Source: Lineus longissimus (taxonomy: Eukaryota > Nemertea > Pilidiophora > Heteronemertea > Lineidae). From it: a stretch of DNA of 64,000 nucleotides. Shown here one piece after another: positions 28,995 through 63,488 of the stretch. The stretch's first letter is position 1, and the number at the start of each line of letters is the position of its first letter. The translations under genes and the position numbers were made by a program. The DNA lies in the NCBI RefSeq assembly GCF_910592395.1, contig NC_088308.1, positions 12,107,001-12,171,000 of the forward strand, written 5' to 3'. Under the pieces are notes generated by a model. That model searched no databases. It was not told the DNA's origin and was given only the letters and a program-made list of their open reading frames with translations.

Positions 28995-28997
28995 AAC
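28995..28997. repeat. Left 3-bp target duplication of transposon A
   Basis: AAC, repeated at 33316-33318 directly outside the opposite terminus. Confidence 0.65.
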
Positions 28998-29533
28998 TAG
29001 TCCTGGAGCCAAGGGGTGTTTGCATGCATAAAAGGGCCCCACAATCACTCACCTGATTTTGATAAAGGACCACCTGGGACACCCATTGAGCGAGGGTGGA
29101 CATTCTGAAACCCAGCAGTTAACCTGCTATTCATGGTTTTGTTGCGATTCCTCGTGCGCATAACCGCCGCCAAAATTAGGGGTAGGGGAAATTCAAATTG
29201 ACCTAACGTCGTAAGGAAACACCCTAAGGTAACATATGACCACTCAACATGGAGCTTATAGTATCAGCTATATGATGAATGCAGAAGAAAAATGATTGGT
29301 TGAAGTTCAAGGTCACAAGAGGTCAAACTATGACGTAATTCGACCCTTGCTTAAAATCTGGACCCTTAAATATTAAAACAAGCCCAGAAATAATGTGAAT
29401 GAATGAATTATTCATTTATTGACCAATTCCAGTAGAGTACAATTTAGGTAAGTTTTTAAACCGATAGGGAGCAATAATCTTGTAGATTAACCCCTTGGGG
29501 TCCGATTGAAATTGTAATGAAATTAGCAAAAAT
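28998..29533. repeat. Left TIR of transposon A
   Basis: About 536 bp, inverted at 32780-33315. Contains TTCAAGGTCA and AGGTCA half-sites near 29306-29326 and a TGACGTAA site. Confidence 0.9.
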
Positions 29534-29886
29534 TAGCAAAAACCTGAAAACTACTATTCGGAAGCAATGGATAGGCTCAGGAGTGATGTAATTATATGGT
29601 GAGGTAGTGTTTTCATTTAAAATCACATGCATGTGTCTGATATATATTTTGTAGCCCAATAAACAATTACAGCTGGAGCATTTTGTAGAATCCATGGTGG
29701 GAAATCATCTGGGGAATCTCCACTTTGACCGCATGGCATCATGAAGCCACATCTCAGTTAGCAATGATATCATCAATTTTCATCGAAATCATGCCTTTTT
29801 AGGTGAGTAGATGGGATGCTAATACCATTATCTGATTGTACAGATTGCATAGAATATTAATTACATGAAATACTTTGTGTCTATAG

Positions 29887-32584
29887 ACATTTAATAATGA
29901 AGAATATGCTACAGTGTACACATCCCTAAAGAATTTCCAAGATGTTCTGAATCAGTTGAAGCAGTCTCATTTGCCTGTTGCATGTGATGAGGGGGTGTAC
30001 CATATTGCCCGTGAGATCATTATGAACAACCCAAGTGAATTTACTAACTTAGTGTTAATTTTAGGTTCCTTCCATCTCATTAAGATAGTCATGGGTGCCA
30101 TTGGAAAATACATTGATGGGTGTGGAGCTGAAACGATCTTCGTGGAGTCAAAGGCCTTTGGAAAGAATGTTGTCAAATCAGTGCTTGATGGAACACACAA
30201 TACCAGGTCACTGAAGGGATTATTGTTGCTCTGTGAATCAATAGAAAGGTTGCAGTGGACAGAATTCTTCCGAACCAAAGGAGTGGAACCATACAGGAAT
30301 AACCTTGAAATTCTTAAGCTGATGAAAGCTTCCGTGTCAGAAAAGAACAGGGAAGAAAGCAAACAACATTTACATGCATTCATCTCAACCTCATCAAACA
30401 TGATTGATGACTTCAATGCCTTCAGGTCTGAAAGCTGCGCGATGTCGGAGACATTTGCGTTCTGGGATCGGTTTGTCCAAATGGTGTGCGTCCTGAAAGA
30501 TCTAGTAAGAGCTGATCGTGAGGGAAACTGGGACCTACACCTCCATAGTGTACAGGCAGTTCTACCCTGGTTTGATGGATGTGACCGGATCAACTACCTC
30601 CGATGGGCCAGTGTGGGCGCAGACATGTGCCTTGAACAGACAATAAATCGATCCCAGAAGAGCGCAAGTGGCATTATCGGCAGTACAAAAAGAAAACAAT
30701 TCGTTGCTCAGTGGGAGATCATATAACATGAGATGTTAGCTGTCGTTAACCTTCAGCGTGAAATCAGTGGTGTGACCACACCCAGCACGGAACTTCACGT
30801 GAACCATGAGTTCAATCTACCTGCCACACGAACCTCCGAAGTCTTGATCCATGATATGATACAGTACATCAAGCAACATGAAAATCCAGCAATCATGTCC
30901 ACAGAGGGAGACCACGATGAATAGCATACCCTTCACAACATCCTCACCCAAGAAATCATGTCCAGCGAAATCCGTGACAACCTTCTCAATTTCCACACGA
31001 ATTCCAGCACGAAGTACAGTACATTTCGCACTGAAAGGTTTGTGACTAAGCAAAGAACCATCTTTGATACCATTCACAGGAATAACTTGAAAACGTTCAA
31101 ATCCATGAAGCCCAAGAAAAGCCAAAACCAAGCAAGAGACAAGGGGAGCAAAAAGCAATTAGCAGAGACTCAGAAGATCTTCGATATTGCCCGTGTCCGA
31201 GATTATGATATGAAGTATTTGTTGACGTTTGACCTGGTCGACAGCAGCTATCTCTTTGATGGGGATGGACTCATGAATAAACCCAACAAGAGTGACCTGT
31301 GCACTGAATTAGAGAAACAGCTTAACAAAAATGACTATCTCCCACCATCAAAATGGAAGCAGGCAAACACTGCCAGCATCATTGATGTGATGGGTTGCCT
31401 ACGCCGCATGCGCTTAGCCTCAGTGAAAACCTTTGGTGATCTTTGCACACACTTTTTGGATATGACACATGGACTTTGCAGCAATTCGAACCGCATCGAC
31501 TTTGTTTTTGACACATACACGGAGGGCTCTGTGAAAGACAGTGAAAAAGCAAGGAGATGTAGCTGCAGTCCCATCGACCTGAATGTAATGTATGGAGAGA
31601 CCCCTTTACCAGTTACTATGGACGCCTTTTGGGCATCATCCACCAACAAAGTCAAGGTACAAGGGTTACTTCGAAGCCACATCTTAGGCAACCCAAAGGC
31701 GGGGACAGATGTAGTAGTCAGTGCGATGGGTCCATCTTCTGAAATTGAACCATGCAGGGCTATTTTTAGTGACTGACATAACAGTACCTGATTTAGCTGT
31801 TGACATCGAAGAGGCAGATGTGAGGATGATACCACATGCTCTGCATGCTGTCAATTGCGGGGCAATCAGAGTTGTCTTGCTATCAAATGACACAGATGTC
31901 ATGGTCCTTGGATTGAATTACTGGAGCATTTTGAAAGGACATGGATTGAAAGAACTATGGATTAGGGCTGGTGTGGGGAATACCACAAGGTATATACCCC
32001 TCCATACCTTGGCCAATAGGTTGGGCACAGATATCTGCAAGGTCCTTATACCACTTCATTACCTTACTGGCTGCGATTCAACAAACAAATTTGGTACAAA
32101 AGCTGCTGGTCTCAAGGCAAATCCAGGTCATTATCTCCGAGACTTTGGAAAGGACCCAACTAACATCGACCTTGGCTTAGTAGAAGAATATCTTGTCAAT
32201 GTTTACAAAGCAGGCACGCCATGTAAATCGATGGATGAGCTCAGGTACCACCTCTACCACCACAGCAAGAAAACAATATTGGAACTACCCCCTACCACCC
32301 ATTCAACCAAAGGACACATCCTCAGGGCGTTCTATGGCACGTACCTGCAGTTACACTGTTTAGATAGTCCACAGCTAGATCCCCGAAGCTTTGGTTTCAG
32401 CCAAGAAGACGGCATCATGCAACCGGACCGACTTCAGATCTTGCTCCCAGATGACTTCCCGATGCCATGTAAATGCACATCCTGTGCTACCAAACGCTGT
32501 CCTTGCAGACAAGGTGATATAAAGTGTTGCCCCTACTGTAACTGTCAGGCATCAAATAAGGGCTGTAAGAACCCTGCAGGCTGA
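29887..32584 (+). pseudogene. Transposase-like protein of transposon A, truncated and broken
   Basis: Coding similarity starts right after an acceptor-like CTATAG (29881-29886), so an intron may precede it. Order: VACDEGVYHIAREI (candidate first catalytic D) near 29980; ILGSFHLIKIVMG (FH); an FVESKAFGKNVVKSV segment; CLEQTINRSQKSASGIIG (candidate E) near 30630; then LPVTMDAFW, IEEADVRMIPHA, LLSNDTDVMVLG and LTGCDSTNKFG, which fit the acidic sites of FEN1/XPG nucleases; and finally a Cys-rich module (CKC-x2-C-x4-CPC... ending CKNPAG). Breaks: in-frame stops at 30724-30726 and 30922-30924, and a frame change near 31760-31776. Compared with transposon B the first ~500 residues, including the zinc-binding N-terminus, are absent. 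Related proteins are recalled as unannotated predicted proteins in many invertebrates and fish. Confidence 0.85.
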
Positions 32585-32779
32585 TCATTTCCCAATGAAC
32601 TCAATACCCCCCCCCCCACCCCGTCTATACCTATGAACCGAAAAAGTCTTTAATATTAGCTTTTTGCATTGCTAAACACCTTTCACTTTGGTACAGAGGA
32701 GTTTTATATCATGTATATACACCACATCATCACTGTTAGTGAGTTTAACATTTTGCCAAAGTATGGCAGTTTTTATTCA

Positions 32780-33315
32780 TTTTTGCTAATTTCAGTACAA
32801 TTTTAATCGGACCCCAAGGGGTTAATCTACAAGATTATTGCTCCCTATCGGTTTTAAAAACTTACCTATATTGTACTCTACTGGAATTGGTCAATAAATG
32901 AATAATTCGTTCATTCACATTATTTCTGGGCTTGTTTTAATATTTAAGGGTCCAGATTTTAAGCAAGGGCCGAATTACGTCATAGTTTGACCTCTGGTGA
33001 CCTTGAACTTCAACCAATCATTTTTCTTCTGCAATCATCCTATAGCAGATACTATAAGCTCCATTTTGAGTGGTCATATGTTATCTTAGGTTGTTTCCTT
33101 ACAACGCTATGTCAATTTGAATTTCCCCTACCCCTAATTTTGGCGGCGGTTATGTGCACGAGGAATCGCAACAAAACCATGAATAGCAGGTTTACTGCCG
33201 GGTTTCAGAATGTCCACCCTCGCTCAAATGGTGTCCCAGGTGGTCCTTTATCAAAATCAGGTGAGTGATTGTGGGGCCCTTTTATGCATGCAAACACCCC
33301 TTGGCTCCTGCACTA
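32780..33315. repeat. Right TIR of transposon A
   Basis: Reverse complement of 28998-29533 with scattered differences. Confidence 0.9.
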
Positions 33316-33318
33316 AAC
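33316..33318. repeat. Right 3-bp target duplication of transposon A
   Basis: AAC, identical to 28995-28997. Confidence 0.65.
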
Positions 33319-34845
33319 CTTTGTAGCGTCGCCCTTATCGACGCCTATCTGAAGAGAGTCTGTCACCATTTCTATGTGAAACGCGAGGTTCATTTAATAA
33401 TAGTTGAAGTTCTCTGTGGACTATTGCCATGCCATACCAGTCCAACTAGCCTGCAACCAGCCAGCTTCACCAAGTCCCATACCTGCTTCCAAGGTTAATA
33501 ACAGAGCCGCACACTTACCGTGCCGGGTGTCGCCATGACCTTCAATCCATATCCAGGCTGTTACCAAGCCTTTCCGGGTGTGAACTGTGCCGTCCCCAGG
33601 CAGTAATCCAGGCTGTTACCAAGCCTCCCCGGATGTGAACCGTACCGTACCCAGGCCTGCCTGACTCAGATCATCCCTGATCTATCCATAAACCAGACCA
33701 GATTTAGTCATGCTTAACCTAGCACCTACCACATGGTGACCGTTCCAGTACCAGCCCGACCTTGGACCAGCACCAGAGTACAGAACAGACGGTTTCATAC
33801 AGACCAATTATGTCAACAGAGAACAATATTGTCAACTTTAGGGATACCAGTGTCTATCAAATGAAAGCACTTCAGGAACCTCGCATTTCGAACCATCTGA
33901 CGACAGACTCACTTCCATTATTGTCAGTAGTAAAAGGATGAACCATTCCAACGTCCTTTCCCCTTCCCTGCTACCCCGAGTGTACCAGGCCATGGACACA
34001 CGTTAAAGACTGAGTGAGAATCGCTACAGTAATACAAAATTAATGCACTACAAATCTTCCAAATATAACACCGAGCTGGGATTAAGATCAGACCGTTGGT
34101 GTTCCAGTTGGTTTCAGTGTGAAACTAAAACCTAATTTGAAATAGGATAATGCTAAAACTGAGTGTCAAAACTAACACCAGAACTGATTTCATTTCTGGT
34201 GTTTTGGAGAGTTTTAGTTTTAGTCCCGGTGTTAGTTTTTGACACTAAAACCATCCCTTAGTTTTAAGCTAAAACTGGACATAAAGCTAAAACCAACAAA
34301 CACCGACTTTGAAATAGGATGAAACTAAAACCCACTTCATTTCAATGCTGGTTTAATCAAGGGTTTTAGTGTCCCATTTAGTTTTAAAACTAAATCTAAA
34401 AACTGACTTTGAAATCAACCATTAGCTGAGGTTTCTGTCACAGAGCCTGGTTCGGGGCTCAACACCTCCAACCCAACGGCAAAACTAAACCTAACTTATA
34501 CTAGTTGGCACCCGACATACAAACTGGCCTACACTTTACCGTCGGGATGTTGCTTCACTTGAGGTCAATGAGGATGTCTGATCAATACAAAGATAGTTAA
34601 AACGCCTCGAATGGTTTAGCCAGACATACTGGGGACATACTTGCCACATCTTGGAAGTCGACCTGGTCGTCTGCTTTTCATCCCTGGTCGACATTCGATT
34701 TTTCTACACCCACCATGCTAATACCGTCGTATATGTGGCTACTGTCTACAAATTATTTGATATTGCACGAATTAATTGATATTGATCTAGTTGGTAAATG
34801 GCGATCATTCAAAAATTCTAGACCATTTCGCAGACTTTCCTCAAA
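33319..34845. other. Non-coding stretch with small repeats
   Basis: At 33549-33660 a CCAGGCTGTTACCAAGCCT block is present twice. At 34080-34410 many inverted TAAAAC/GTTTTA motifs centre on ACCAGAACTGATTTCATTTC, suggesting a decayed palindromic MITE. No gene is recognised before the exon at 34846. Confidence 0.4.
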
Positions 34846-34899
34846 ATGGCAGAGACAGCAGACATGGCAGAGGTACCAAAAAATTACACAGAGGAAGAG
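34846..34899 (+). CDS. Candidate first coding exon of the ARL6IP1-like gene
   Basis: ATG in a good context opens MAETADMAEVPKNYTEEE and runs directly into a GTAAGC donor in phase 0. The exon at 46964 begins in phase 0 with NDLVSKIKKELEGW, so the two would join in frame, and ARL6IP1 proteins have a short acidic N-terminus ahead of that helix. If correct, the first intron is about 12 kb and is filled with transposons. The link is inference: another gene could own this exon, or it could be chance. Confidence 0.45.
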
Positions 34900-35189
34900 G
34901 TAAGCTGCCTTTAACATCGTCATGTTCCTATTAATTGCTATTATCTTTGATGACTCAGTCACTCGACAGTCAGTTCTGAGTGTGTGCATCTGTTGTTATG
35001 ACTCCAGCTCCAGTATTGTTTTCGCTCCGGTTTCTCGTCCAATCACGTGACCTCTCCAACACTCGATAATCAATGCACTCTTCGTCCACGTTTTAGGCCA
35101 ATCTTCGGCATTAACATGAAATCTAATATGAGGAAGGCTCAGGCCTTGATAGGGAGCTCTTCGTTAATAGGGCTGGTGATCGAGCGAGA
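34900..35189. other. Start of presumed intron, nothing recognised
   Basis: No repeat or gene is seen. Confidence 0.35.
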
Positions 35190-35395
35190 AGACTCGGGTG
35201 GTGGTGGTGGGGGTTGGGGTTGGGGTTGGGGTTGGGGGGGGGGGGGGGTATATAGTTAGGATGATGCCATCATGGCAGTTGACTGAAGAAGCAGTTGGCT
35301 AGCACACAATGTCAATGATGGCGAGTAGTTGCTGGTTGGGAGAGGGGGGATATAGTTAGGATGATGCCATCATGGCAGTTGACCCAATAGACGCT
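35190..35395. repeat. GGTTGG microsatellite and 40-bp duplication
   Basis: GGTGGT then (GGTTGG)n and a G run to about 35247. TATAGTTAGGATGATGCCAT at about 35250 is repeated at about 35350 together with the following CATCATGGCAGTTGAC. Confidence 0.75.
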
Positions 35396-35563
35396 GTCGC
35401 AGTATAGAAAATAGGTGAGGAGAATGTGGGAAACTAAACACAACAGGAGATGAGCATAATGATCCCAAGACCCAAGTGTAGGATTTGAATTCAAAAAGAC
35501 CTTAGCCGACCCCCTGTCCTGAAGAGTTTGAGGTCTCACTAGCCAGTGGTGATCAGGTGTTAA

Positions 35564-35885
35564 AGCGAACTGGAACCGCCGAGCGATTTATTCAACTTTT
35601 CGACTTTCACCGCCCGAGAAAGTTGAGTTCAGATTTGTAGCCCCGCCCCCAGTGCCCGAGCATGCGCAGTTCAATTTGGTATTATTGAGAATCATGTGAG
35701 AATCACGTGAGTCATGCGATCTTTCATTCATGAATTTTCGTAGTAAATTCCATAGTAGTCACTACTATGGAATTTGAATGATTGACAGCTAGGCGCCATG
35801 TTTCATTCATGCCTCGTTCTGATCACCCGATACGCGGGAAATGAAAACGAGGTCATACGAACTGGCTTGGCGGTTCCAGTTCGCT
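35564..35885. mobile_element. 322-bp MITE with TTAA target sites
   Basis: Flanked by TTAA (35560-35563 and 35886-35889). The terminal inverted repeat AGCGAACTGGAACCGCC is perfect at both ends. It contains a strong inner palindrome around CCATAGTAGTCACTACTATGG (35751-35771). TTAA targets are used by piggyBac and Kolobok elements. Non-coding. Confidence 0.75.
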
Positions 35886-35889
35886 TTAA

Positions 35890-38719
35890 TCTTGAAGTTT
35901 ATATAAGGCATAGAGGTGAAATTTTACAAATTTGCGTTATACAAGGTGTCTCATGCATTGTGCTACATCAGTCTATGCACTTGACAGACCCTTGTGCTGG
36001 AACAACGCCTTCGGCCTTATGAGACGCTTAGGTTGGACTCGCATCCCCATGTAGTCAAAAAGCAACCAATCCACTGGCTTCTCAAAAAAAATCATATAAA
36101 ACAGCGCAATGCTCGGCACCTCTTCCGATTTATGTAACTTGCCGATATAACCCAAACCAGAAAACTCCAAAGTCGACCAAGTTTGCTGTCGAACCTCCAG
36201 GATATATTGCTTGATTTGTCTAGACAACGTTGAAACTTGGCCGGATGTATTCTACAAGAGACAAGCTATTCAGAAATGTAAAGGTTTGTGTGAGAGTAAG
36301 GTACTGCCAAGTCTAAAGCCGCTGGAACAGGGGTATGCATGAAATGACGTCGCGTCATTTTTGGAGGCAGGTAGGCCTGGCCTCCACACCGGCTAGTGAG
36401 ACCTGAGGGTAGCGCGTGCGTTTGAGTTAGTGCGCATGCGCTTTCTGAAAATAGAAATGGCTTGTGTTGTGGACGAGTGGTTTCAGGTTTCAAGGTAGGA
36501 TTTTGCCATGGAAACGGGGAAATAGACATTGAGACCAATGTACTTTCAAGATTATTGCATTATAAATGGAACCAGACCGTCGACATCTTGCCACACCCCA
36601 TGATATTGACGAAATCGTCGTCGAAACGGGCAGCCCTGGACCGATCATGTTGGTGCGCATGCGTACAACGGAAAAGTTAGCAGACTGAAAATCTTTTGCG
36701 GAATTTTGCCAGTTCAAAGCACGATTTCTTCGCGGAAAGAGAAAAATAATCTCTGGCAGCTATGTAGATTGTTGTTTAATGCATTTCGATTCGCCCCAGG
36801 GTATCGTCACACTTTGATTCGGCCCTGTTTTGACGAAATCTCCAACCGAACAGCGGCTACTCTGCGTAAACATCATCGCGTCCCGCTGAATTGTTTGGAA
36901 AAAGAAAATCTCTCCCCAGGTAAATTGCTGTGCATTGACGTATATGATTCGCGTGCAAAAATGTCACCTGGGCGCGGAGGTTTTCTGGTTCCGGTCAACC
37001 GGGTCAAGTTTTTTTCGTTGACGGTATACACACACACATTCGACCATTAACCATAAAGCTCGCTTAAGAGCTCCCTAATAAGCGCAGTACTTAAATCAGA
37101 TGTTTCTCTCGCCTTGAAAACATTCCTGGGTAAAATCCATTGAGATTAGCCAAGTTAATCTACTTTTTCCGTGCTTAAAATCTCTGCCGCTGAATTCTAT
37201 AAACAGAAACTATTAACATCGCGGCAGTGTGGTTCCCATTGTGCGCCCTCCCACTTCACACCATGACAGGAAGTTTTACGGAGAGGGAGGGCGTGCGGTA
37301 AGAAGAATGGCCAAAATGACGTCACGTTTTCCTGGCAATGCCTCTTGCCAGACCAGTCAAGCATTGGGAAAGCATCTTTAATTCAGACAACGTTAGAACT
37401 AGAAAAACGAATATGTTAATTTGCAAAAGTAATAGCAGATTTCACCACTAACCAGTCAAATCGGAATACGACGGCGCAAAATGTTCTCGCTTTCCTCCTG
37501 CTAAAAAAACCTTGTTCCCGCACTCCTATTTTAATTTATGCCCAGGAATATGATATGATCTGTTTTCACTTGTTCTATTATGACCTTAGTCAGCTTTCTT
37601 CAGGGCTGACAATCCTTCAAGATTTTCAGGATTCAGTCTTCACCCACATTCCACCTAAATCCTTGGATTCCTCAACTCAGGGAAAAAGTCCGTCTTTGAA
37701 TGAAAAGGGTTAAAGTTGCAATTTCTCCTTATTTGTTGCAAAATCTTCATTGGAGACCTAGGTAAGAGCAGTAGGCGATTTTCATTGAGTTCTGCTTAAC
37801 TATCAGCCAAAGATTGAGTCCTTTAGGACTCCCTGAAAGTACGTTAAAAAATTGATTTCTGATTTAGGATTGGCAATTTTGCCATGATTCCTTAAAGACT
37901 CAAGAAGCACACCATCAAAATCCTTAAATTCAGTGTCAAAAATCTTTGAGAGGTCTCCTAGGGGTTGGCAGCTCTGTCCCTTACCTTGCATTGATGTACT
38001 CTACTTGTACACATCTATACTGCTGAAAATTGCCAACGCTTCCAAAAAATTGTTTTGTACTTTTATGTATAATAGTTCACCTGAAAACTCGCTGTATCTA
38101 TTTGTAATACATGTAGTCAAATAAAGTAACAAATACATGTACGGTATTTTTCTAAATCTGCCTCCGTCTTTCATGAAAATTCATCAAGGCCAATAGCTTA
38201 CTCACCCACTGTAGTCTGAACTTCAACCACCAGCAAGAGTACACGAATACAAAGCCACTCAACATTCTCCATGAACAGATCCCATCGTTCAACTAGTCCT
38301 CTCTCCCCAGGTGCCTCACGGACCTTCAGGTTCCCATACTCAAGACCAACTCTTACGTTATCGCCCTCAAAACAACCCTGGAGTCATGAATTCACAGGTG
38401 CTCCTGTGAAATCTCAGTTCTAGTTTGTTAGATATTTTTCATAAACCCTTCATTGATGTACTGTACAAACTTTCTATAACAACACTGTGTTCAAACTGAA
38501 GGCGAATTTACCCGGAAAACAGTTTGGTTAAATTGCTTTCAAGTCAGTCACGTCTCACTTGGCCGAATGCGCATTCAATTCGGTCTTAAACGGGTCACAC
38601 TGAATTGACAGTAATGATACGCCAACTACAGTAGATTGTTGAACTCACTCCTGTGCTCAATCCAAGATGGATGTGCCCATGAGAGCAAACGGTGACGATG
38701 GAAATTATGAAAAATCTTG
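35890..38719. other. Non-coding stretch (presumed intron)
   Basis: No gene is recognised. About 38545-38610 carries motifs of the 12.2-13.8 kb GAATTC-rich repeat (ATGCGCATTCAATTCGGT). Confidence 0.35.
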
Positions 38720-39673: not shown

Positions 39674-39964
39674 TATAATAATATTAGAAGGGGGACGAAT
39701 AAAGTCACACTTAGAGGCGTTGGATCGCCTTGAAATTTTGCATGAATGGTGGTGACACCTTACCCTGATGCAACGTCTTGGTTTTATCAAAAAATTTACT
39801 TCAGCGGAGCAGAAATGAGGGATTTTTAATCGGACACTGTCAATTCTCCTTACCACTCACAGAAGCCAAGCCATTGCTGTTAAGTTATGCAGGGGCTTAA
39901 TCAATTACCTGCACTCCCTGTGGGGTGAATAACATTACCTTTTGAACAGCTGGCTGTAGGCACA
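39674..39964 (+). mobile_element. 290-bp repeat, possible Helitron 5' end (copy 1)
   Basis: Starts TCTATATAATAATATTAGAA and matches 45196-45487 in reverse orientation for about 290 bp. TC followed by a TATATAATAATA string resembles 5' termini of some Helitrons. The gypsy pol fragment begins immediately after it. Whether the two copies are independent insertions or the ends of one larger structure is unclear. Confidence 0.45.
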
Positions 39965-39965
39965 T

Positions 39966-42161
39966 CAGTGTGATCAGGACGGTATCAGGCCAACAGATGA
40001 GAAAGTGGAAGCGATCGTAAATGCTCCAGTTCCAAGTAATCAGTCTGAACTCAGATCGTGGCTGGGAATGCTTCAATTCTATGCACGGTTTTTACTGAAT
40101 CTGTCATCTGAACTCAATCCGTTAAACAGACTGTTACAAAAGGGTGTCCCTTGGCGCTGGACTGAAGAGTGTGATCAAGCCATAGTGAAAACTAAAGAGG
40201 CACTCCGTAGTGCTGACGTGTTGGTTCACTATGATCCTAAGTTGCCGATAAAACTGTCATGTGACGCATCTCCGTATGGAGTAGGTGCAGTCATAGCTCA
40301 CGTGTTTTCTGATAAGTCCAAGAGACCTATAGCTTATGCATCGCGAACGCTAACGTCTAGCGAACGAAATTATGCACAGATCGAGAGAGAAGCTTTTGGA
40401 ATTGTGTTTGGCGTGAAAAAGTTTCACAAATACTTATTTGGGATATTGTTTACGCTAGTGACTGATAGCAAACCGTTAACAACGATTCTAGGTCCCAAGT
40501 CAGGCATTCCAACTGTTGCTGCCGCTAGAATGCAGCGGTGGGCTGTGATATTGTCCGGATATCACTATGAGATTGAGTATCTCAGATCAGTGGATCATGG
40601 GAACGCTTTATCTCGTTTGCCTTTACGTGTTGATAAAAGTGTTGAATCTGTAGATCAACAGATCTATACAATTTCGTATATGGACGAGTTGCCATTAATG
40701 GCTAAGGACATCGTGACAGCTACAAGGAAAGACCCAGTCTTAGCTCGTGTGTACGATTTCGTGGTCAATGGTTGGCTGGCTGTAGTGAAAGAGGAGAAAT
40801 TTCAACCGTATTTTCGGCGTCGTACTGAACTGTCAGTTGAAAACAACGTTCTTCTGTGGGGAATGCGAGTGGTTGTCCCTACTGTGTTAAGAAATCGTAT
40901 CTTAGGTGAACTGCACGAAGAACACTTAGGAATTGTGCGCTCTAAGTCGTTTGCTCGAAGTTATGTGTGGTGGCCGAGACTGGACAGTGACATAGAAGCG
41001 ATGGTAAAATCTTGTGCAGTGTGTTGTGCTGTACAGAAAAATCCACCAAAAGCACCATTGCATCCGTGGCAGTGGGCTACACGTCCGTGGCAACTTGTAC
41101 ACATAGATTTCGCAGAAAAGGAAGGAAAATATCTGCTGGTGATCTATGACTCTTATTCGAGGTGGATTGATGCGCTGCCTATGAGAACAATAACTGCTGA
41201 AAGGACCATTGAAAAACTGCGGGTAATTTTTGCTTATTTTGGATTACCTGAGACTGAGAGGGTAGTTTCAGATAATGGACCGCAATTTATCGCAGAACAG
41301 TTTCGTCAATTTATGCGTAACAATGGTGTCCAATCACTTAGTCCCAGTGTATCATCCAGCCTCCAATGGCGCAGCTGAACGAAGTGTTCAAACAGTGAAA
41401 TTAGCACTGACTAAGAAGGTCTTAGATGCAAGCGTGAATTCTAATCTGACCATGTCCCACAAACTAGCTTCATTTCTGATCGTGTATAGATCAACACCCC
41501 ATACTGTTACAGGACAGTCCCCAGCTACATTGTTTCTCAAACGTCGGATCAGAAACCGTTTCACTCTACTGAAACCTAACCTAGAACAAACTGTTAGTGA
41601 CAAATAGGCTCAACAGGTGAAAGATCATGACAAGAGTGGTGTGAAAATGCGTGAATTTAGGCCTGGAGAGGAAGTTAGAATCAAGAATTTCCGTGGTCAT
41701 GGTAATGAGAGATAGGTACCAGGTACCATTACTGAACGTGCAGGACTTTTAACATACAGAGTGAATGTTGGTGGTATCACTAAATTGGTTCATGTAGAAC
41801 ATATTAGGTCATGTAGTCAGAATTGTAATTATCAGTCCTCAACTGAGACGAGAGTACCAACTGTGTCTTAACAGATTACCATTCAGTGTATCAGATAAGT
41901 CCGTGTCTCTATCTTCTGAGCAAATTCTGAACTCGGATGTTCCAGTCATTTCTGACTTTCCAGCTGAAGTCACCAGAGAAGCCTACTAGTAGTAATACAT
42001 GTAATATGCCTGTAACTTGCTCTATTCCTCAAGTTTCTCAAAACACTCCCAGTATGGACATTCAGAATCATACTCCTGGCCCTATCAGTAATCCTTCTGC
42101 TGTAGTTGCTCCGAGGCGTTCACAGAGAGAACGTAAACCAAAGAAGATTTTTGATCTGTAA
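39966..42161 (+). pseudogene. pol: Second Ty3/gypsy pol, 5'-truncated (RT end, RNase H, integrase)
   Basis: Begins inside the RT (IRPTDEKVEAIVNAP), so protease and most of RT are missing. Then RNase H (LSCDASPYGVGAVIAHV, YAQIEREAFG, VTDSKPL); the integrase HHCC (LHEEHLG ... CAVCCAVQK); core D residues in HIDFAEKEG and SDNGPQFIAE; E in SNGAAERSVQ; and a C-terminal tail ending RRSQRERKPKKIFDL. Breaks: a frame change near 41330-41340 between the second D and the E, an in-frame stop at 41605-41607, and another near 41713. This is a different lineage from element 1 (standard SDNGPQF box, YASRTL RNase H). Confidence 0.88.
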
Positions 42162-42554: not shown

Positions 42555-43470
42555 CTGATGAGTGACTCGTTTTTCGATAAAATTTTTATGGTAGGTTGCA
42601 CCAAATGTCATGAGTTTTTGATTTGACCTAATTTTCAAGGTCACAGAGGTCAAATGGGATAAATTGGCCATTTGAGTATACCTATGGCATGTTTCTTAAC
42701 CGCTAAAAAAGCTATGAACTTGAAATTTGGTACACATGGCTCCCTACGTCATATAACCGCTGGCACCGAAATTCCGTCTAATATGATTTTCGTCTTGGCC
42801 ACCAGGCGGCCAAAACTAAAAAAGGTAAAAAGTGCAGTATCTCGCTTATTAGTGACTTGTTTTTCGGTGATATTTGTATGGTAAGTTGTCCTAGCAAGGA
42901 TACATCACATATATCCTACAGGATTTTGATTTTACCTAATTTTCACCGTCACAGAGGTCAAATGGTGTAAATTGGCCGTTTGAATGTAACTATGGTACGT
43001 TTCTTAACCGCTACAGCCATGAACTTGAAATTTAGTACACAAGAGTCCCTCTCGCATGTAACCTCTGACACCGAATTTTGATCCGATCTGATTCTCGACT
43101 TGGCCACCAGGAGGCCAAAACTAAAAAAGGTAAATAGTGCAATATCTCGCTTAAATTAGTGACTTGTTTTCGATGATTTTTTTATGGTAGATACTCCAAG
43201 CAAGGATACATCACATGTCATACCAACTTTGGTTTGACCTATACTATATACACGTAGCATGTTTCTTTACCAGGATGAATTCCTAATCACCTAACATCTA
43301 TAAGGTGAGCACAATGGCCCCTGGGCGTTTCATTATAATATTTTTTCTCCAAGGTACTCCAAGAAAGGATACATCATATGTCATACGAATTTTGATTCAA
43401 CCTACACTTTTCAAGGTCACAGAGGTCAAATCACAAAAATTAGTCATTAGGCCTTAACTATGGCACCTTT
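42555..43470 (+). repeat. Tandem array of ~290-307-bp AGGTCA-containing units
   Basis: Three units start near 42562, 42852 and 43159 (GTGACT(C/T)GTTTTTCG). Each contains a TTTGAC(C)TA...CAAGGTCACAGAGGTCAAAT-type block, TTCTTAACCGCT and GGCCACCAGGCGGCC-type motifs; the third is incomplete. Related single copies lie at about 350-560 (reverse), 45490-45660 and 47760-48080. Confidence 0.75.
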
Positions 43471-43475
43471 CTTAA

Positions 43476-44035
43476 CCCTTTAAGGACTACTCTCGCCGGG
43501 CGGCGAGAGATCAAAAATCAACGTTCTGGACTACTCTCGCCGCCCGGCGAGATATTGTGCTGTCCGACAATACTTCGTTCCGCTTATTCCATGGTTTGAG
43601 TTTGCTATTTATAACCACCCGGAGGGGATTCCCCAGATCATATGCTACAAGTTTGCTATTCATTGCGACTTTGTAGCGTGATTCTGAGTGTCGATAATTA
43701 TCATTTTTTTGCGGGACAACTTCGTCAAGACGTCAAAATGTCAAGACATCTGACTGTAGAAGACGTTCTGAGGGAACTTGTGGCGGACGATGATTCTGGA
43801 GATGAGGATTTTGCGGAAATACCAGACCTTGAGTTCATGATACCCCCCAGATGATTGCATTTTCAAAAACTAGAGGTAAAATGCTCAAAAAAGTTCAATT
43901 ACACCAAGGCTGTGGCATTGATGCTTATTCTTCAAAAATCACTTTGAATTTATGATGTCACATAATTTTTGTCAAGTCAAAACTCTGTTAGTCCGTGAGG
44001 TTGGTAAAATTATAACTCTGTTAGTCCTTAAAGGG
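43476..44035 (+). mobile_element. 560-bp piggyBac derivative
   Basis: Flanked by TTAA at 43472-43475 and 44036-44039. The terminal inverted repeat CCCTTTAAGGACTA is perfect at both ends. Two GC-rich subterminal palindromes (43490-43509 and 43532-43551) each follow a GGACTA motif. TTAA targets with CCCT-type ends are the hallmark of piggyBac. It lies within the AGGTCA array, inserted at the TTAA of its TTTCTTAACC motif. Confidence 0.88.
43738..43854 (+). pseudogene. N-terminal remnant of a piggyBac transposase
   Basis: ATG at 43738 opens 38 codons: a TVEDVLRELVADDDSGDED stretch, then FAEIPDLEF and a stop. An acidic helix of this type is typical of piggyBac transposase N-termini; the DDD catalytic core is absent. 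The element could be an internally deleted copy keeping promoter and start. Confidence 0.6.
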
Positions 44036-53005: not shown

Positions 53006-53102
53006 TGTACAAATGTAAAATGATGATTAAATTGGTTTCACATGTACCAAATCCAAACTTTTGTTGTATCTTTTTTTTGATGAAATGTAGTGTACTTTTT
53101 TC

Positions 53103-54108: not shown

Positions 54109-54173
54109 CTTTTTCTGCACCTGGTAGGCCTATGTCATTGACATCACCGGGATCCATCATGCTGAACACAAAC
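54109..54173 (-). CDS. Candidate first coding exon of the unrecognised spliced gene
   Basis: After a TTTCAG acceptor, ATG codons at 54160 and 54157 open MMDPGDVNDIGLPGAEK, followed by a GTAGGT donor. Joins the exon ending at 53005 in frame. Confidence 0.45.
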
Positions 54174-55069
54174 CTGAAATAATTGGTGGTGGAGATGGGG
54201 TTTAAATACATGTACGATCGTTTAAATCTTAAATGCATTGGGGAATACCGGGGAGAATACAGTCACCCAAAAAATAATCTGGTGGTATCGGTATCACCCA
54301 GTATCACAACGCCCTCAAAAAATTTCTCTTGTTGTTGTCGGTTGGATTAAAATTATAACATTTATACGCATGTAGTTACTTTACAAAACGCTACTTCAGT
54401 CTGTTAACGTCATTAAGTAGGCCTGGGTCATTTGGTTGGTAATAAAGATTGGGTAAGTTCGAAACTTTAATAGTCATATACCAAGGCAATACGGCCACCG
54501 CGCTGACGATGTTTATTATATTTGTTTTGCAGCTTGGTATTGGCAGGACTCATTCAAATGAGAGAGCCAAGAGTACCAATATAGGGAATGGCTAGGATAG
54601 GCTATAGTGACTACTAGTATAGCCTACATGTGCAGTTACACAACGGCAAGTCTTGGAGGCAGGAATGATTCTGCCTATACATACATGTCATGTCTGGGCC
54701 GACCGCAAGATCGATGTGCGCGAATCGGTACTAATTTAATTCTAGTCATAGACCTAGGCCTACTTGATACAAGCCTTACTACTTGAAATGAGAATTTAGG
54801 ATTGATATTCAACACATGCGATCGGCCCTGATGTCGCAGGACTGTGAACAGATAGGCCTATAAAAGCACATTTATAGGCCGATTACTAAAAACAGTGATA
54901 CGGTAGCAATTAGAAGCAAATTTCTCTAGATGCAACTGTTGAATCTCAATTAGACTTACCGATAAAGATCGAAAATAACAAAGATAAATGGGCGAAATAC
55001 ACATCCGTCTTTCAAGATATAAATCAATGAAAGAATGAAACAAGAGCATCGCATGTGCATTTCGTGCAC
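54174..55069. other. Non-coding interior of the Harbinger-like element
   Basis: No gene is recognised. Confidence 0.35.
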
Positions 55070-55449
55070 ATTTCGTTTCAAACGAAGTACGTTTCAAGTT
55101 CGTTTGATAGTGCGTTTTCCGTTCGTTTGAAACGAATTACGTTTCCAGTTCGTTTGAAACGAAGTGCGTTCGACAATCGTTTCGTTTGAAACGAAGTGCG
55201 TTTGACAATCGTTTGACGTGCGTTTGAGATCCGTTTAGTGCGATCGTTTGGAAATCGTGTGGCAAGCGTTCTGATCGGGCGTGTTCGTTTGGGAGCGTTT
55301 CGAAATTTTCATCTGGGGTGTGCGTTTGTTTTCAAACGCTTTTCAAACGGCTGATAAACGGATGATTTTCGTTTGAATTTCGTTGTAGAATAAACGCTTT
55401 TTGCCCGTTTCAAACGCGTTTGAAACGAAATCAATTTGGAGACGGCCCC

Positions 55450-55452
55450 TTA
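55450..55452. repeat. Right TTA target duplication of the Harbinger-like element
   Basis: TTA directly after GGCCCC. Confidence 0.6.
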
Positions 55453-56001
55453 TAGAATTGACCCCATGAAATTTATAGGCGCATGCACTTAAGAACGACA
55501 AATTTGATCAGGTAAACAAGGGTGAAAACAAGCAGTTTTCGTTTATATGCGCGTGCGCCTTAATACGCGTAAATACGGTGTAAGCTTAAGACTATGTGAT
55601 AATGAATGACACCACATCATTATCCAGATTCAGTCTCGAAGTCATGGCTTATACCAAGAATTAAGAAAGACTGGTCTTTATCCTAAATAAGTATGGGTAG
55701 TGCTAATTGTCTGTCGTTGGGTTTGGTTCAGAAATTTCCGATGATTGCCGAAGTCATTAACCAATGAGAGGGCTTGTTTTCATTTACACGAAGCGCATGG
55801 CCTAGAAATCATGTGTTTGGGAGTCAATCATCAAGTTGTAATTGAATCAAGTTTTTTGAAGCGAGAACACGCAGCAGGTTGCTCCCTCTTCATCGACCAA
55901 AAAAACCTGTGCCTGAATTGAGATCCCGGATAATATGACAGTTGAAGTTACTTGCCCCTATAATGCAGTAATAAAGAGATAATAAATCTGTAATTAGAGA
56001 A
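55453..56001. other. Non-coding stretch
   Basis: Nothing recognised between the two large elements. Confidence 0.35.
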
Positions 56002-56004
56002 CAG
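56002..56004. repeat. Left 3-bp target duplication of transposon B
   Basis: CAG, repeated at 63486-63488. Confidence 0.65.
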
Positions 56005-56525
56005 TAGTCCAGACGCTGAGGGTGTTTTAGTGTGACCGAGAGAGGCCCGAAAAAACTCTTCAAATTATTAAAGTAGAGTATCTGGGTATTCAATTTTATG
56101 AGGGTAGAACTTCGTTGCCATGGTCACATTTTTGCAAATGGCGCCTGTTGTTGCCATGGTGACGTTTTTGGAGTCTTTCCCAAGATATTTATTTTGGTCT
56201 ATCTCCCGAACACCTGGGGCTAAATATGAAAACAAAACGTCAATATATATGTTGTTGGGTTCCCTCTATTCAAATATGCTAATGAGAGTTTCGTTAAAGG
56301 TCAAGGTCATTGTGAAAGGTCAAGGTCAAACCAAAAAGTCACCAAAAATTTCACTTCTGTGGCATATAGTTGGCTTTTGATAGTTGTTATTATCATAAAA
56401 GATATATACTTTGGCCTATTTTACTTCAGGGGGTAATGAGCTCTCAAAGTAAATTAAATAAAATTATGTTGCCATGGTAACCATACTGTAACAAGCTCGC
56501 TTTCAATCAAGCGCATTTTTCGCTC
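56005..56525. repeat. Left TIR of transposon B
   Basis: Inverted at 62965-63485. Contains paired AAAGGTCAAGGTCA motifs at about 56297-56330 and CCATGGTGAC/GTTGCCATGG motifs. Open frames inside it recur in the other arm only because the arms are copies. Confidence 0.9.
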
Positions 56526-57333
56526 AATCAAAGTTACGTTATTTTTGACACATTTTTCATTTCACCAAAATGTTTATGTATTACTTTATCGATATTCTAC
56601 ATCTTTTTAAGTGATGTTTAACGCTAAATATTTATCTTTTAATATGTGTAGGTCAGTCAATTTCTAGGGTCTGAGTAATTTAAGAGAAATCTAACTATTC
56701 TGGTGGGGATCCGCTCTTCGGTCGCGTTGGATTGTTTTCAGAAATGTAGATGTGGCATTTGCCAGCATAGTGGTGTATCATGCTTCATTACCGACCACTA
56801 AGGAATACAGTCGACAATAATAAACATCATACATAATAGTCGCTTCATCTCTCATCTGTGACGTCACAACGTCATGACCTAAACGTAGTCACAACAGAGC
56901 TTGATACGCAATAAGATAAGAAATGGCTATGAATGAACAGCGCACATTTATAGCAGGACAACAATTATAAGGTCGTGTAGGTAGGTGCAGCAACATCAGC
57001 TATTACTCTGCTGTCTCATCTTCTCAAAATCTATGAACTAACTCATGATGACATGAAAAAGGGCTCGATGACGCTATTGATATCAAAGACAGCGAGATGC
57101 ATGCAGTAAGTTTAGTTTTGGTATTCAGTATGAATACATACTAGTAAGCTTTGACACTGACTACTCAAATGTTTTGCCCCTACTGCTAAAGAAATGACCG
57201 GTGAAATATGATTTGACAAGGCATCGGCGTGTCATATGACGACGTGTATCATTACAAAGGCCATGTAAGGGTACACCCTCTGACTTCGATATTGTTATTG
57301 GCAAACGTTGAGTTTGCAAATGTAGTTCTTCAC
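56526..57333. other. 3' untranslated part of transposon B
   Basis: Between the left TIR and the end of the minus-strand gene; no gene is recognised. Confidence 0.5.
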
Positions 57334-60300
57334 TTATATCGGATAAGTGGAAATTGGATTTAGACACTGCTTGCTATTGCTATTGAAGTTGCACGAACAA
57401 AACCTGCTGCAGGCTGTCCCTTCCCCGACGCAGGGACACCTGTCTGTGGAACACCTTTCGCACTTGCATACCACAGTGTGATGATAAGGAATGGGGTTCA
57501 AGCCTAATTCTGCCACTAGTGAGTCGTTTCTATGAATAAATCTGTAATGAGTTGGGTCCAAGTAGTCGCTATAAGAGACATCCAAGACAGACATCATTCG
57601 GTAAGCAGCATACAACGCCCGTCTGATGTGGAAGGATACGGCATGGCTCGTAGGCGGTAGAGAGGATCTTCGGTTAACTTTGCTCTGAAAGTACTGACGT
57701 ATCCTTAGATCGTCCATTGTTTTGAATTTGAAACCGTTTTTTATCACTTGAACTAAGTATTCTTCACAGTGTGCCATCTGAGTCTTGGATAGACTAGGCT
57801 CCCTTCCGAAGCCTCTGAGATATACTGCTGCATCGGTTTTCAGCGCCATGTACTTTGTGCCCAACTTACTGGTGTAATCACACCCGGTAAGAGTATGGAT
57901 GGCAGGGAGGACCAGACACAATTCTTCACCAACGCAAGCAGCTAGTGTGTGAATAGGGATGTATCGCGTAGAATCACCGACGCCAGCTTTCTGCCAGAGT
58001 TCTTTGAGACCATTTTCGCTAAACTGTTTCCAGTAGTACAGCAGTAGGACGAACACGTCCGTGTCTGCCGATAAGACCACAACCCGCCTCGTTCCCTGTT
58101 TGACAGCATGCCACGCATGTGCTATTATCCGGTCATCTGCTTCTTCGATGGGTAGGTTATTTAGTTGTTCCAAAATGCTGATGTTACCGTTGTGTGACTG
58201 CCTGCAGGGTAAATCTTCTTCTTTTCTCAAAATGTGGCTAGCGACCACTTGCACATCTGGAAGCAATGTTTTTGCTCTGTCTAAAACACGTTCGTGTAGA
58301 AGTGCTTCAAGCTTGTCCTTGTTTGACTTTGAGGGCCAGAAGGTTTCCATTTTTACAGGCATTTTTGTTTCAGAAGCTACATCAGCAAGCTCGATTGGTG
58401 TTGCATGCTGCCGTCTCTGCCTTTCCCCATCTTTTATGGACACATCGCTGTCATTGTAGGAATCAAAGACTAAATCTAGTTGCGGTGCGTAGTAAGTTGA
58501 TGATCTGATGTACCGTATCTGCCCCTCTCAAAAATCTCCAAATGTCCTTTTTGGCTTGCCCTTCCGAACGATTCCCATCATGTCAACTATGGCTGTTGTA
58601 TGATCTCCATCGTCAAAGTTCCTATTCTCTCGATTCTCTGGCAATCGTTTTTCGAGTTCTTGCATCAGAGTGCTTTTGGCAGATTTCTTCATCATCTTGT
58701 CCTGATCAAATAGGTAGGAATCTGGTGAGACATCATATTTGAGTAGCTCTTCCATCGACACTCCCCTTGAAACCGCTACCTCTATGGAACGTTGGTAGTG
58801 AGCGTCCTTGTCTTTCCTAATATTTGCTTCATCCTGTGCTGTTGGTGCGGTTTTAAAGGTCTTTATATTTCTCCGATGAATTGTGCTGGAGAGCTTAACC
58901 GTTTTCTTTGTAAATCTCTCATCTCTAAGATTCGCGTACGCCTCAGAACCAATGTTGACAACGTTCAGAATTTCTAGGCGAACCTCATCTGTGGCGATGG
59001 CTTTTGTCATGATGTTGTGAAGCCGCCCATCAAGCCTATCTGTCGAAAATGGGTTACCTTGTTTGAGCAAGATTTGAAGGAGTGACTGCACATTTCTCTC
59101 CGAGGAGACAGTATCAGCAATGTTTAGCTCATGGTTCAGCATGTCCCCGACAAATGAGCATGTTCCAGCTAACTCTCTATGAAGATTAGAAATCGACAAC
59201 AACTCGTGGTTAATAAGCTCCCATTTGGCTACAAACGACTTTCTTTTCGTATCTCCAATGATTCCGCCAGCATCTTTCTGCGACCGGTTTATGGTTTGCT
59301 CTAGTGCCATGTCCATGCTGACGGAACGAAATTTGCCGGAAAGCCGTTTCACGACGAACCCTCCGTTACAAAATGCCCTGTAGACCTCAGGTGCCTGGTC
59401 AGGTAACTGCCTCATGTCCTCCATGTACAGCGAGCACCAACGAAGGTAATTGATAGAGTCAAAAGCAGCGAATAATGGGAGCAGAGTTTGGACTGATGCT
59501 AGATGCAGCTCCCAGTTCCCCTCTCGATCTGCTCGTATGAGATTTCGGACCCCTTCATACAACTCTCCAAACGTGTTCCAATAGCGAAATGTCTCATCTT
59601 TCTCTGAGGATTGTTCAAGGAACTGCTGATACTTTGAAAACATGCTTGAGCCACCTTTATTGCTGAAGGCCATCAGAAGTTTCTTACTTTCTTCTACCTT
59701 ATTGGTCTCTAAACAATGTTTCAAGTCCTGGAGCGTGCGCAGTGTGCCCTGGTGATTGGCGATTCCTTTCACATTCATATATTCTTTGATCTTCAGACGT
59801 GTCAAAGCTTCATTCAAGAGCTGGAAACCCTTCATGGATCGGTTATAATGCTTCCCTGACATCACCGACTCGACAACATTCACTCCGAAAACTCCGCTTT
59901 CAACAAAGATTTCCTCTGCTCCACTGTTTTTCAGATACTTGCCAATACACCCCAACGCTACCTTGGCCATGTGGAAGGTCCCTAAGCAGATAACTACATT
60001 GCCAAACTCGGTTGGTCGAAGAAGCTGAATTTCTCTTGCAATCCTATAGACTCCTTCATCACAAGCAACGGCCATCTTTGATTGTTTCAGATGTTTAAGA
60101 ATGGCTTGCATATTCTTCATTGCAGTGTATACCGTATCATGTTGGGTCACCGGGTACGGAAGGACTGGTAAAAATCCAACCTTGGTCTTTGGCGTCGAAT
60201 CATCGGACTACAGAGCATTTGTGCCTGTCCAAGATGGTGTGCACTGGTTTCCTGGGATGATATCTTTCACGTTCTGCTCCTCGTCGATGTTGATGCGGGC

Positions 60301-61891
60301 AAGGGACCAAGCAAAATCCTTATGAGCAGCGGTGGAGATCATTGGTTCATTCACGTACAAATCCGTAGCTACGCTGTAATTATCGGGAAGATTCGGTTTC
60401 TTGGCTGGCTTGTCGAAAACTTTCAGCTGCTGACACTTAAGTTCTGACTTGAATGCTCTTTCATCCTGCGCTATGCCGACCTCCGAAGGTCGCGGTTTGC
60501 TCTGCCGGACACCTTGATCTTCCTTAATAAGGACTGTCACGGTATCGTGACAACCACCTTTCCCCGAAAGAGTTGCCTCTTCATGGTCGAAGTTATCGAA
60601 TGCCGCAGTGGTAAATATCTCTGGATGAAAATTGCTGGGAAGAAGAGCATCTTCTTCATCACTGCCAGCTTGGTAGTTCGCTAAACCTGTCTGTAGGCGC
60701 ATTGCATCATCATAGCTGGAGCATAGGCCGTACCTATTAAAGGATTTCATCAGTGTTTTACTTTTGCACGTTTCATGTAATGCCTGACTGTTCATGATAT
60801 ATAAAGGTGTTCGTTTCTTACCGTTGTGTAATACGTAAAACATAATCTGGCAAAGCGACTTCATTCGGGTAACCTTGCTGTTAAACGGACACTCCTCTTC
60901 TTGGTCTGTCGTGTCCATTCTAACTCTCGCCTCGTTATCTTGGAAGTCCTTTGCATTGAAATTGAACAGTGTAGCGAAAAACGTAAGAAGAGGAGAAGGG
61001 ATTGCCTGGGAACGCCATGCATGTTCCAGGTCAGTACTATCGCAGAACCTGTCATCAAGATCAAAATCAAACTTAAGTAGCGCAGATCTAATCTCGGTTG
61101 CACACTGAACAATAGGGTCAATGCTTTGGACTTTCTCTGGAAGTTTAGGGGTGGAGAACACCTTCGCGCTAAACACTAATAGAGATTGGGTAGCTTTGCC
61201 AGACTTCGAAAACACAATGTCACTTCCAAATACATCACTTAGCTGCTTTTGAACTTGTTTATTGGTCACCTGACACATGTGATCCAGTTTCTCATTTATT
61301 CGGTCTCTTATGGTGCTTAGTTCATACCCCAATCCTTCCTCAAAACCGTCCTTAACCTCCAGCAGTATTTCATTCCACTTTTGGTCAGTGTGGTCGTTAT
61401 CTTTGTTCTCCTCTGACTTGTCGGCCAGGCGTTCATATAAACGTACGTAGTGTTTCATGCAGGATTTGTGATAGAATATGTCTGCGGCAAAAATTGCTTC
61501 CGCATCCTGCAAGTCGCATATTCGTAAATAAACGTTATCTTGCGAAAGGGCGGCACATTTCAGAAATTTTTCAGCGCAGTCCCTTTCCGAAAGTCCCTTT
61601 CCGAGTTAAACCACCGCGTTTGGAGTATCGCGCTGTGGTGTCTGATTCTGAATCATTGGACAGTGTAGATTTGGCTGGTGATTTCTTCATTGTATAGCGT
61701 TTGTAGCAGTCATTGTTCATGTGGCCTTTCGAGACAATATCATCCCTTTCAGTAGCTGTTTCACGTATCCTTTTGCATCCATTCGAAGTGCCCGATAACT
61801 TGACTGTCGAACATTTTTGGCAGAGAATGCAGCTCCTCTGGTCAAAAGGTATCGGCTCCCTTTCCGAAAAGGATAACTCAAGTGTTTTCAT
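57334..61891 (-). pseudogene. Transposase-like protein of transposon B, ~1500 codons, broken
   Basis: Read from 61891 downward: an N-terminal zinc-binding region (CILCQKC ... HMNNDCYKRY), a second His/Cys part (FYHKSCMKHYV near 61470), an AAFDNFDHEEATLSGKGGCH segment, then an RNase-H-like region: VACDEGVYRIAREI (D, about 60060), CLGTFHMAKVALG (FH, about 59975), FVESGVFGVNVVESV, and ALEQTINRSQKDAGGIIG (E, about 59300). Next comes a FEN1/XPG-like region: LPIEEADDRIIAHAW (about 58145), VLSADTDVFVLLLYYW (about 58055), LTGCDYTSKLG (about 57880). It ends with a Cys-rich module CKCERCSTDRCPC...CSCN. Breaks: a frame change near 61571-61600 inside a small tandem duplication, stops at 60208-60210 and 58528-58530; coding similarity continues through each. 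Catalytic roles are inferred from motif order, not aligned. Confidence 0.87.
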
Positions 61892-62964
61892 CGTTAAAAT
61901 TTAAAGTGCCTGAAATGCAAGAATAAAGGTAGCTTTACATAATTGTATTTTCATACATAATTACATAGTACTTAGATTGAGTATTGATACTTGTAGGAAG
62001 CTGGCCTTTCATTTGCTTTTGAAAAGAGGCCCTACCGATAATATTAATTTCATCTTAAGGTAGCTTTCAGGAGTTAGAAGTGTGTTCATGCGCCTTACTA
62101 CCCCTAACCGTAGTTCCTAAAAAATTGTGGATTCCCTGTTGCTCACGTTATCTATCACTGAACGAACACCTGCACGAGTTGGGACATGCCGTGAAGACTT
62201 CCTGAAACCTCTCGCACCGTTCAATAGATTGGTGTATTTCATAAACGCATTTTCGTCATAATGGCTGCGTAGGCGTTCACTGCATTGGGAGTGCATCGGC
62301 CAGGTGATCAGCTGTTTCACAGTCAAGTTTTTGGTGCATTTTCCGTGTTTTCGACAAAAATCAAAATAGTTCGAAAGTAAGCTGACTAAACTATATATTT
62401 TTTTGCATTTTTCTCGAGCCTGAGCTATTGCCTTTTATGCGAAAAACGACTATAGAACATATTCTAATAAAGTTAGTATACTTACGGCTTTTATTCCACA
62501 AAAAATTGTCCTTTTTGCATTGAAAAACGGCAAATACTGTTTTCGCGCTTCTTTTCCCTTTGAAATTTTTGATGGGTCCTCTCCTTTTTTCAAAAATCAT
62601 TGTTGGCGCCCAAAGTTACGTCACATCGTAATGACGTAACATTACGTCACATGATCTCATGTCAGATGATGCCACAGTTTCAAAAATTGCAATGGAGGAA
62701 ACATACCACTAAAATTTCTACTTTCAAAATGAAATCACATATCTGGTAAATAATTTCTTACTGAACTATTTCATATTGATGAAAAAAACAAATGACATAA
62801 AATTATAATCATAATTTAGTTTTAAAGCTCCGATGATTGTTAAACAATCTGTGACTTACATGTATGAGTTTTTACTTGGCGCTAATAATCGTATAAAGGG
62901 CTTACCCAATGATTTTAAAGTCTGTACTGAAGTATATGACGTAACTTCTCTTTCTTTTTGAGTT
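61892..62964. other. Upstream region of the transposon B gene
   Basis: About 1 kb between the gene start and the right TIR with no coding similarity. It contains the CRE-like cluster listed separately and probably the promoter. Confidence 0.45.
62616..62649 (-). promoter_or_regulatory. Cluster of CRE-like sites
   Basis: TTACGTCA (62616-62623), TGACGTAA (62632-62639) and TTACGTCA (62642-62649) within 34 bp, about 720 bp upstream of the transposon B gene. CREB/ATF-type binding is an inference from the motif. Confidence 0.4.
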
Positions 62965-63485
62965 AGCGAAAAATGCGCTTGATTGAAAGCGAGTCTGTTA
63001 CAGTACGGTTACCATGGCAACATAATTTTGCCTACATTACTTTGATAGCTCATTACCCCCTGAAGTAAAATAGGCAAAAGTATATGTCTTTTATGATAAA
63101 AACATCTATCAAAAGCCAACTATATGCCACAGAAGTGGAATTTTTTTGTGACTTTTTGGTTTGACCTTGAGCTTTCACAATGACCTTGACCTTTAACGAG
63201 ACTCTCATTAGCATATTTGAATAGAGGGAGCCCAACAACATATATATCGACGTTTTGTTTTCATATTTAGCCCCAGGCGTTCGGGAGATAGACCAAAATA
63301 AATATCTTGGGAAAGACTCCAAAAACGTCACCATGGCAACAACAGGCGCCATTTGCAAAAATGTGACCATGGCAACGAAGTTCTACCCTCGTAAAATTGA
63401 ATACCCTGATACTCTACTTTAATAATTTGAAGAATTTTTTCGGGCCTCTCTTGGTCACACAAAACCCCCCTCAGCGCCAGGACTA
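62965..63485. repeat. Right TIR of transposon B
   Basis: Reverse complement of 56005-56525 with scattered differences. Confidence 0.9.
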
Positions 63486-63488
63486 CAG
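63486..63488. repeat. Right 3-bp target duplication of transposon B
   Basis: CAG, identical to 56002-56004. Confidence 0.65.

Follow-up and report, generated by a model that had tools for sequence, protein, structure and literature searches.

What kind of mobile element is represented by E1 and E2, two diverged sequences with similar ends in a 64,000-nucleotide stretch of the Lineus longissimus genome (contig NC_088308.1; hereafter the window), and how could the large protein that they share move them? An earlier note on this DNA had described both as DNA transposons with terminal inverted repeats (TIRs) of about 520-540 bp, and had assigned them to the Academ superfamily. The observation of two long-TIR elements with shared ends and a homologous protein was confirmed. 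By analogy with described systems, E1 and E2 are very probably cut-and-paste transposons of the AcademX type of Academ, moving by the mechanism proposed below; this kind of transposon is already known and little studied, and E1 and E2 are old, broken copies of it.

Both elements lie at the coordinates given in the earlier note and are flanked by the exact AAC (E1) and CAG (E2) duplications that it had listed (Table 1). The long inverted arms were also found, slightly longer than had been claimed; in the inverted-repeat comparison they are 93-96% identical in E1 and 92-95% in E2. Clear arm identity ends at the edges of both elements; the repeat finder extended the E2 arms by 7 nt beyond them, with 5 of these 7 positions matching. 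The terminal sequences are TAGTCCTGGAGCCAAGGG and TAGTGCAGGAGCCAAGGG for E1 and TAGTCCAGACGCTGAGGG and TAGTCCTGGCGCTGAGGG for E2, and are alike as reported, except that the left end of E2 reads GA where GG had been given. Comparison of the E1 and E2 TIRs gave a best match in the first 24 positions of each (83%, E 0.006) and next-best matches that were not significant (E 0.07). With up to 4 substitutions allowed, the E1 terminal 18-mer was found at three of the four element ends and at no other site on either strand of the window, while 10 single-base shuffles gave 0 or 1 match each when a single orientation was scanned. E2 considered alone permits a 5-bp duplication (ACAGT), in which case each end of the element would lose one base; because this reading fails at E1, 3 bp was taken as the common duplication.

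Copies were sought in the 391-Mb, 30-contig assembly, and all copy counts from genome matching are lower bounds. The first 103 bases of E1 occur in at least 20 places (20 of 20 candidates scored), representing E1 and 12 other loci, all of which were retrieved and inspected. Five of these loci hold two-ended copies that begin and end exactly where E1 does, each with an exact 3-bp duplication of its own, and together with E1 they form a group of six copies with 98.9-99.8% identity. A two-ended relative with 72-76% DNA identity (L016) and a two-ended 345-bp miniature (L018) have no exact duplication, and L011, L013, L017, L019 and L020 hold a single end or a truncated element. The first 136 bases of E2 occur in at least 15 places (E2 and 11 other loci), of which 8 loci were retrieved as nine stretches and 3 weak ones were left out. 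Among the retrieved loci L033 is the sole two-ended E2 copy, 1.57 kb long with an internal deletion; its flanks read TGA on both sides only if a loss of 2 nt at the right end is allowed, and it was scored as not exact. The other retrieved loci have at most one intact end inside the stretch. When the elements were removed and the flanks joined, a frame of 138 amino acids (aa) was open across the junction of L015, the frames at E1, E2, L009 and L014 (65-105 aa) were indistinguishable from chance, and L010 and L012 had no open frame of 60 aa or more. To judge by a motif in its flanks, L014 seems to sit within a putative Harbinger-like transposase gene.

Younger, intact relatives are present in the same genome. 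The E2 protein gave at least 38 genomic matches (33 of 330 candidates scored), from which ten loci were picked and retrieved. L042-L045 are four copies of one family: L042 matches each of the other three at 99.8% identity over 6.4-6.9 kb, only the last ~440 bp of L043 being 90% identical to it, and each copy has an intact 1589-aa frame with 1584-1587 residues identical pairwise. Their ends are TAGTGCAGCGGCCAAGG / TAGTGTAGCGGCCAAGG and their duplications AAA, ATG, TAA and TAT; the protein is 28% identical to that of E2, and the end pattern is nevertheless kept. A fourth family (L046 and L047, 99.9% identical, intact 1627-aa frames) ends in TAGACCA or TAGGCCA, with edges set at TAG...CTA by analogy and with duplications of 4 bp (TAAA) and 3 bp (TTG). 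Thus 5 of 6 duplications in these two families are 3 bp and one is 4 bp; over all 16 two-ended elements, 12 have exact 3-bp and one an exact 4-bp duplication, and 3 are not exact. The element edges and 3-bp duplications, which the earlier note had proposed to check on further copies, recurred in the five further two-ended E1 copies. L048 and L049 contain intact frames of 1465 aa and 1352 aa. No inverted repeats were found around them, which says little, since the short ends of L046 and L047 escaped this test as well; L048 may be either a domesticated gene or a short-ended element. The frame of L048 (locus G000:C1:11987000-11996500) starts ~0.6 kb from the E1 copy L012.

The proteins of E1 and E2 are homologous in two stretches (39% and 45% identity), as had been claimed, but E1 holds only the C-terminal ~60%. 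The E2 protein is matched by 126 proteins at E ≤ 1e-5; among the 120 listed, many are ~1,570 aa long with 37-48% identity. The named sources are a pycnogonid, two wasps, an ant, two bivalves, a gastropod, an octocoral, a hydrozoan and a sponge. The homologues bear only the names 'hypothetical' or 'uncharacterized', two of them merged with unrelated Nymphon gene models; they form the widespread unannotated protein family that the earlier note had linked to a transposon structure. A further protein search, based on the distant alignment A4, brought in only 7 new proteins, two scans of viral contigs revealed no relatives, and NCBIfam gave no match for four proteins. A tree of 33 sequences and 279 columns joins E1 to P0023 and P0026 (support 0.76 and 0.91) and E2 to P0005 (support 1.0), the next neighbours of E2 being weakly supported. 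Because of these separate positions, E1 and E2 are regarded as long-separated lineages inside one genome.

Two enzymes are predicted in the full-length protein. The modelled core (predicted local distance difference test score 88.9) has an RNase H-like fold in which a large helical insertion precedes the last acidic residue, and matches P-element, Hermes, ISCth4 and RAG1 in VIA-align comparisons; a Foldseek search with the core model gave no significant match. D516 and E769 are invariant among 37 aligned proteins. A GxxH motif (542-545) is present in 37 of 37, the His but not the C/D of the C/DxxH motif being kept, and L049 has RxxH. A passage of PMC9587614 places C/DxxH between the second D and E of hAT, P, MuDR, Kolobok and Dada, and Academ is not in its list. 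The model indicates that the core belongs with the P/hAT/RAG transposases. The C-terminal domain matches Exo1/FEN1/XPG by structure comparison. A PDB sequence search with P0004 alone returned nothing, and PDB profile searches gave only weak Exo1 matches, among others. The modelled fold and the strong conservation indicate a complete Exo1/FEN1/XPG-like domain in the fused nuclease; it shares with these enzymes the fold and seven putative metal-binding acids, and differs from them in being part of a transposase protein that a mobile element carries. No Pfam helicase family was found in six window pieces, 23 aligned members and four proteins from the same genome.

E1 itself appears to be a passenger. 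Its homology begins at P0004 residue 488, and the N-terminal part with the DNxD motif, which would hold the first catalytic Asp, is absent; this motif is likewise missing from all six near-identical copies. In all six the C-terminal part is moreover out of frame with the core, which a short intron might explain; L016 has no such shift at that place. As E1 was copied to several sites and yet is unable to encode a working transposase, the family, which amplified recently, must have been moved in trans by another protein. The comparison of E1 with L016 (ratio of nonsynonymous to synonymous substitution rates 0.11 over 784 codons after removal of gapped and stop codons) indicates that the gene was under selection before the passenger stage.

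Features of E1, E2 and the two-ended E1 copies are collected in Table 1.

Table 1. Features of E1 and E2 in the window and two-ended E1 copies elsewhere in the genome (residues numbered after P0004)
Feature	Position	Strand	Remarks
E1 element, 4318 bp	28998..33315	+	non-autonomous deletion derivative; TIRs, ends, exact 3-bp duplication
E1 left target-site duplication AAC	28995..28997	.	exact
E1 right target-site duplication AAC	33316..33318	.	exact
E1 left TIR, 546 nt	28998..29543	+	
E1 right TIR, 547 nt	32769..33315	-	
E1 transposase-core remnant and first nuclease part	29887..31776	+	frames 29887-30726 and 30925-31776, interrupted
E1 C-terminal frame, second FEN/XPG-like nuclease part and CXC motif	31718..32584	+	
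E2 element, 7481 bp	56005..63485	- (gene on minus strand)	near full length
E2 left target-site duplication CAG	56002..56004	.	exact
E2 right target-site duplication CAG	63486..63488	.	exact
E2 left TIR	56005..56532	+	
E2 right TIR	62957..63485	-	
E2 transposase/nuclease frame, 1423 codons	57334..61605	-	two in-frame stops (TAG 60210, TGA 58530)
E2 N-terminal piece, CxxC...HxxC type	61571..61900	-	different frame
E2 DDE transposase core (modelled)	58726..60708	-	DNxD 337-340, D516, GxxH 542-545, E769
E2 Exo1/FEN1/XPG-like nuclease domain	57553..58680	-	D1008, D1048, E1155, D1157, D1181, D1183, D1243
E2 CXC (tesmin/TSO1-like) cysteine motif	57364..57468	-	motif reading; Pfam TCR in 3 of 23 aligned family members (E ≤ 0.01)
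L009, two-ended E1 copy			duplication CTA
L010, two-ended E1 copy, 3579 bp			internal deletion; duplication TAA
L012, two-ended E1 copy			duplication CAT
L014, two-ended E1 copy	G000:C10:8259082-8264116		duplication GTA
L015, two-ended E1 copy			duplication TAA

Other repeats in the window include a Gypsy-type long terminal repeat (LTR) retrotransposon at 17917-27524, with reverse transcriptase, RNase H and integrase frames between its LTRs (17917-18216 and 27225-27524, 300 nt each, 100% identical), which is apparently young. Named proteins matched by a search with the Gypsy polyprotein reached no more than 41-44% (sea cucumber, limpet). A degraded piece of another Gypsy-type element, in which RNase H and integrase domains are still present, lies at 39960-41607, a tandem duplication of ~740-748 bp with two copies 95-98% identical at 12175-13652, and diverged repeat blocks of 90 and 139 nt (67-88% identity, spacing ~305-470 bp) at 42616-43481.

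The Academ superfamily and its AcademX lineage were reportedly described by Kapitonov and Jurka in 2010 and by Kojima in 2020, and the AcademX nuclease is XPG-like. P elements, hAT (Hermes) and RAG1/Transib, which make duplications of 8, 8 and 5 bp, resemble the elements described here in the RNase H-like core with its large helical insertion and, unlike them, are not known to carry a FEN-type nuclease. According to PMC10045372, AcademX makes 3-4-bp and AcademH 9-10-bp duplications, a difference that seems tied to the encoded nuclease (AcademX) or helicase (AcademH). E1 and E2 were filed under AcademX because this is the closest match to a nuclease combined with 3-4-bp duplications; a DDD/E transposase and an XPG-type nuclease are predicted, 3-4-bp duplications flank 13 of the 16 two-ended elements, and multi-kb animal elements are likewise found there. 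No difference from AcademX was seen, the ~530-546-bp TIRs and the amplified non-autonomous E1 being family-level traits, whereas AcademH, the other Academ lineage, is set apart by its helicase and longer duplications. The DDE-like core, the FEN/XPG-like nuclease and the duplications thus support the Academ assignment of the earlier note. KolobokP also joins a DDD/E transposase to a second nuclease and makes 3-4- or 4-5-bp duplications, but in place of inverted repeats and a FEN-type nuclease it has long direct repeats at its termini and an endonuclease of the His-Me finger type; Kolobok as first described makes TTAA-specific 4-bp duplications (both from PMC9587614). The duplications here do not fit Kolobok, being AAC, CAG, CTA, TAA, CAT, GTA, AAA, ATG, TAT, TTG and TAAA, not TTAA.

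A distinct superfamily outside Academ, in which a P/hAT/RAG-like DDE core and a FEN-type nuclease were fused independently and likewise gave 3-4-bp duplications, appears improbable. Several points nevertheless weigh for it and against Academ: the placement was made by features as described in citing papers, at E ≤ 0.01 only 4 of 23 aligned members match Pfam DUF6589 (mostly below Pfam's own cut-off) and 3 of 23 Pfam TCR, a TSO1-like CXC motif, and no function is attached to DUF6589. In the literature searched, which omits most subscription journals, neither a mention of DUF6589 nor a paper with both 'Academ' and 'XPG' as whole words was found. In favour of Academ, the combination of nuclease and short duplications is that of AcademX in PMC10045372, and a bivalve survey reports numerous Academ elements with a similar size (mean 5565 bp for curated elements; PMC10294476), bivalves being among the sources of relatives of the E2 protein. 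Somewhat less probable still is that the C-terminal domain is an inactive structural or DNA-binding relic. Its nuclease activity is putative; against a relic, each of the seven acids is kept in 36 or 37 of 37 proteins only 21-49% identical to E2, and all four aligned intact-frame proteins (L042, L046, L048 and L049) keep them all. That segmental duplications or palindromic repeats merely mimic transposons is hardly credible: E1 and its nearest copy, L012, do lie ~148 kb apart on the same contig with 99.8% identity, but the six E1 copies stand in different flanks, each with its own exact duplication (AAC, CTA, TAA, CAT, GTA, TAA), identity ends at the edges, and the E1 and E2 TIRs share nothing significant past 24 bp. 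Segmental duplication was rejected on these independent flanks.

With E1 and E2 as AcademX-type transposons, one protein of ~1,570 aa would bind the conserved outermost ~20 bp (TAGT-C-GG-GC--AGGG), probably via zinc motifs of the CxxC...HxxC type in its N-terminal part and the CXC motif in its C-terminal part. The DDE core, with its RNase H-like fold of the P-element/hAT/RAG type, would cut the ends and join them to target DNA, and a 3-4-bp stagger at joining would leave the 3-4-bp duplications. The most likely task of the fused FEN1/XPG-like nuclease would be to process flaps or the non-transferred strand, either at the element ends or where integration leaves a gap. E2 is a decayed near full-length copy, and E1 belongs to a deletion-derivative family that would have been mobilised in trans. 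It is conceivable, though on balance rather unlikely, that while the DDE core makes the strand-transfer cuts the nuclease cuts or trims the other strand and so sets the 3-4-bp duplication, rather than the DDE spacing alone; this can be set beside AcademH, with a helicase instead and 9-10 bp.

The analysis adds structural evidence for two complete predicted enzymes, and ties widespread animal proteins known only as 'hypothetical' or 'uncharacterized', a few of them weakly matching DUF6589, to a transposon with two enzymes, defined ends and a duplication length. Moreover, the young intact families in the same genome offer material for studying the role of the nuclease and its link to duplication length, and their intact 99.8%-identical copies would make the idea that the nuclease sets this length directly testable.
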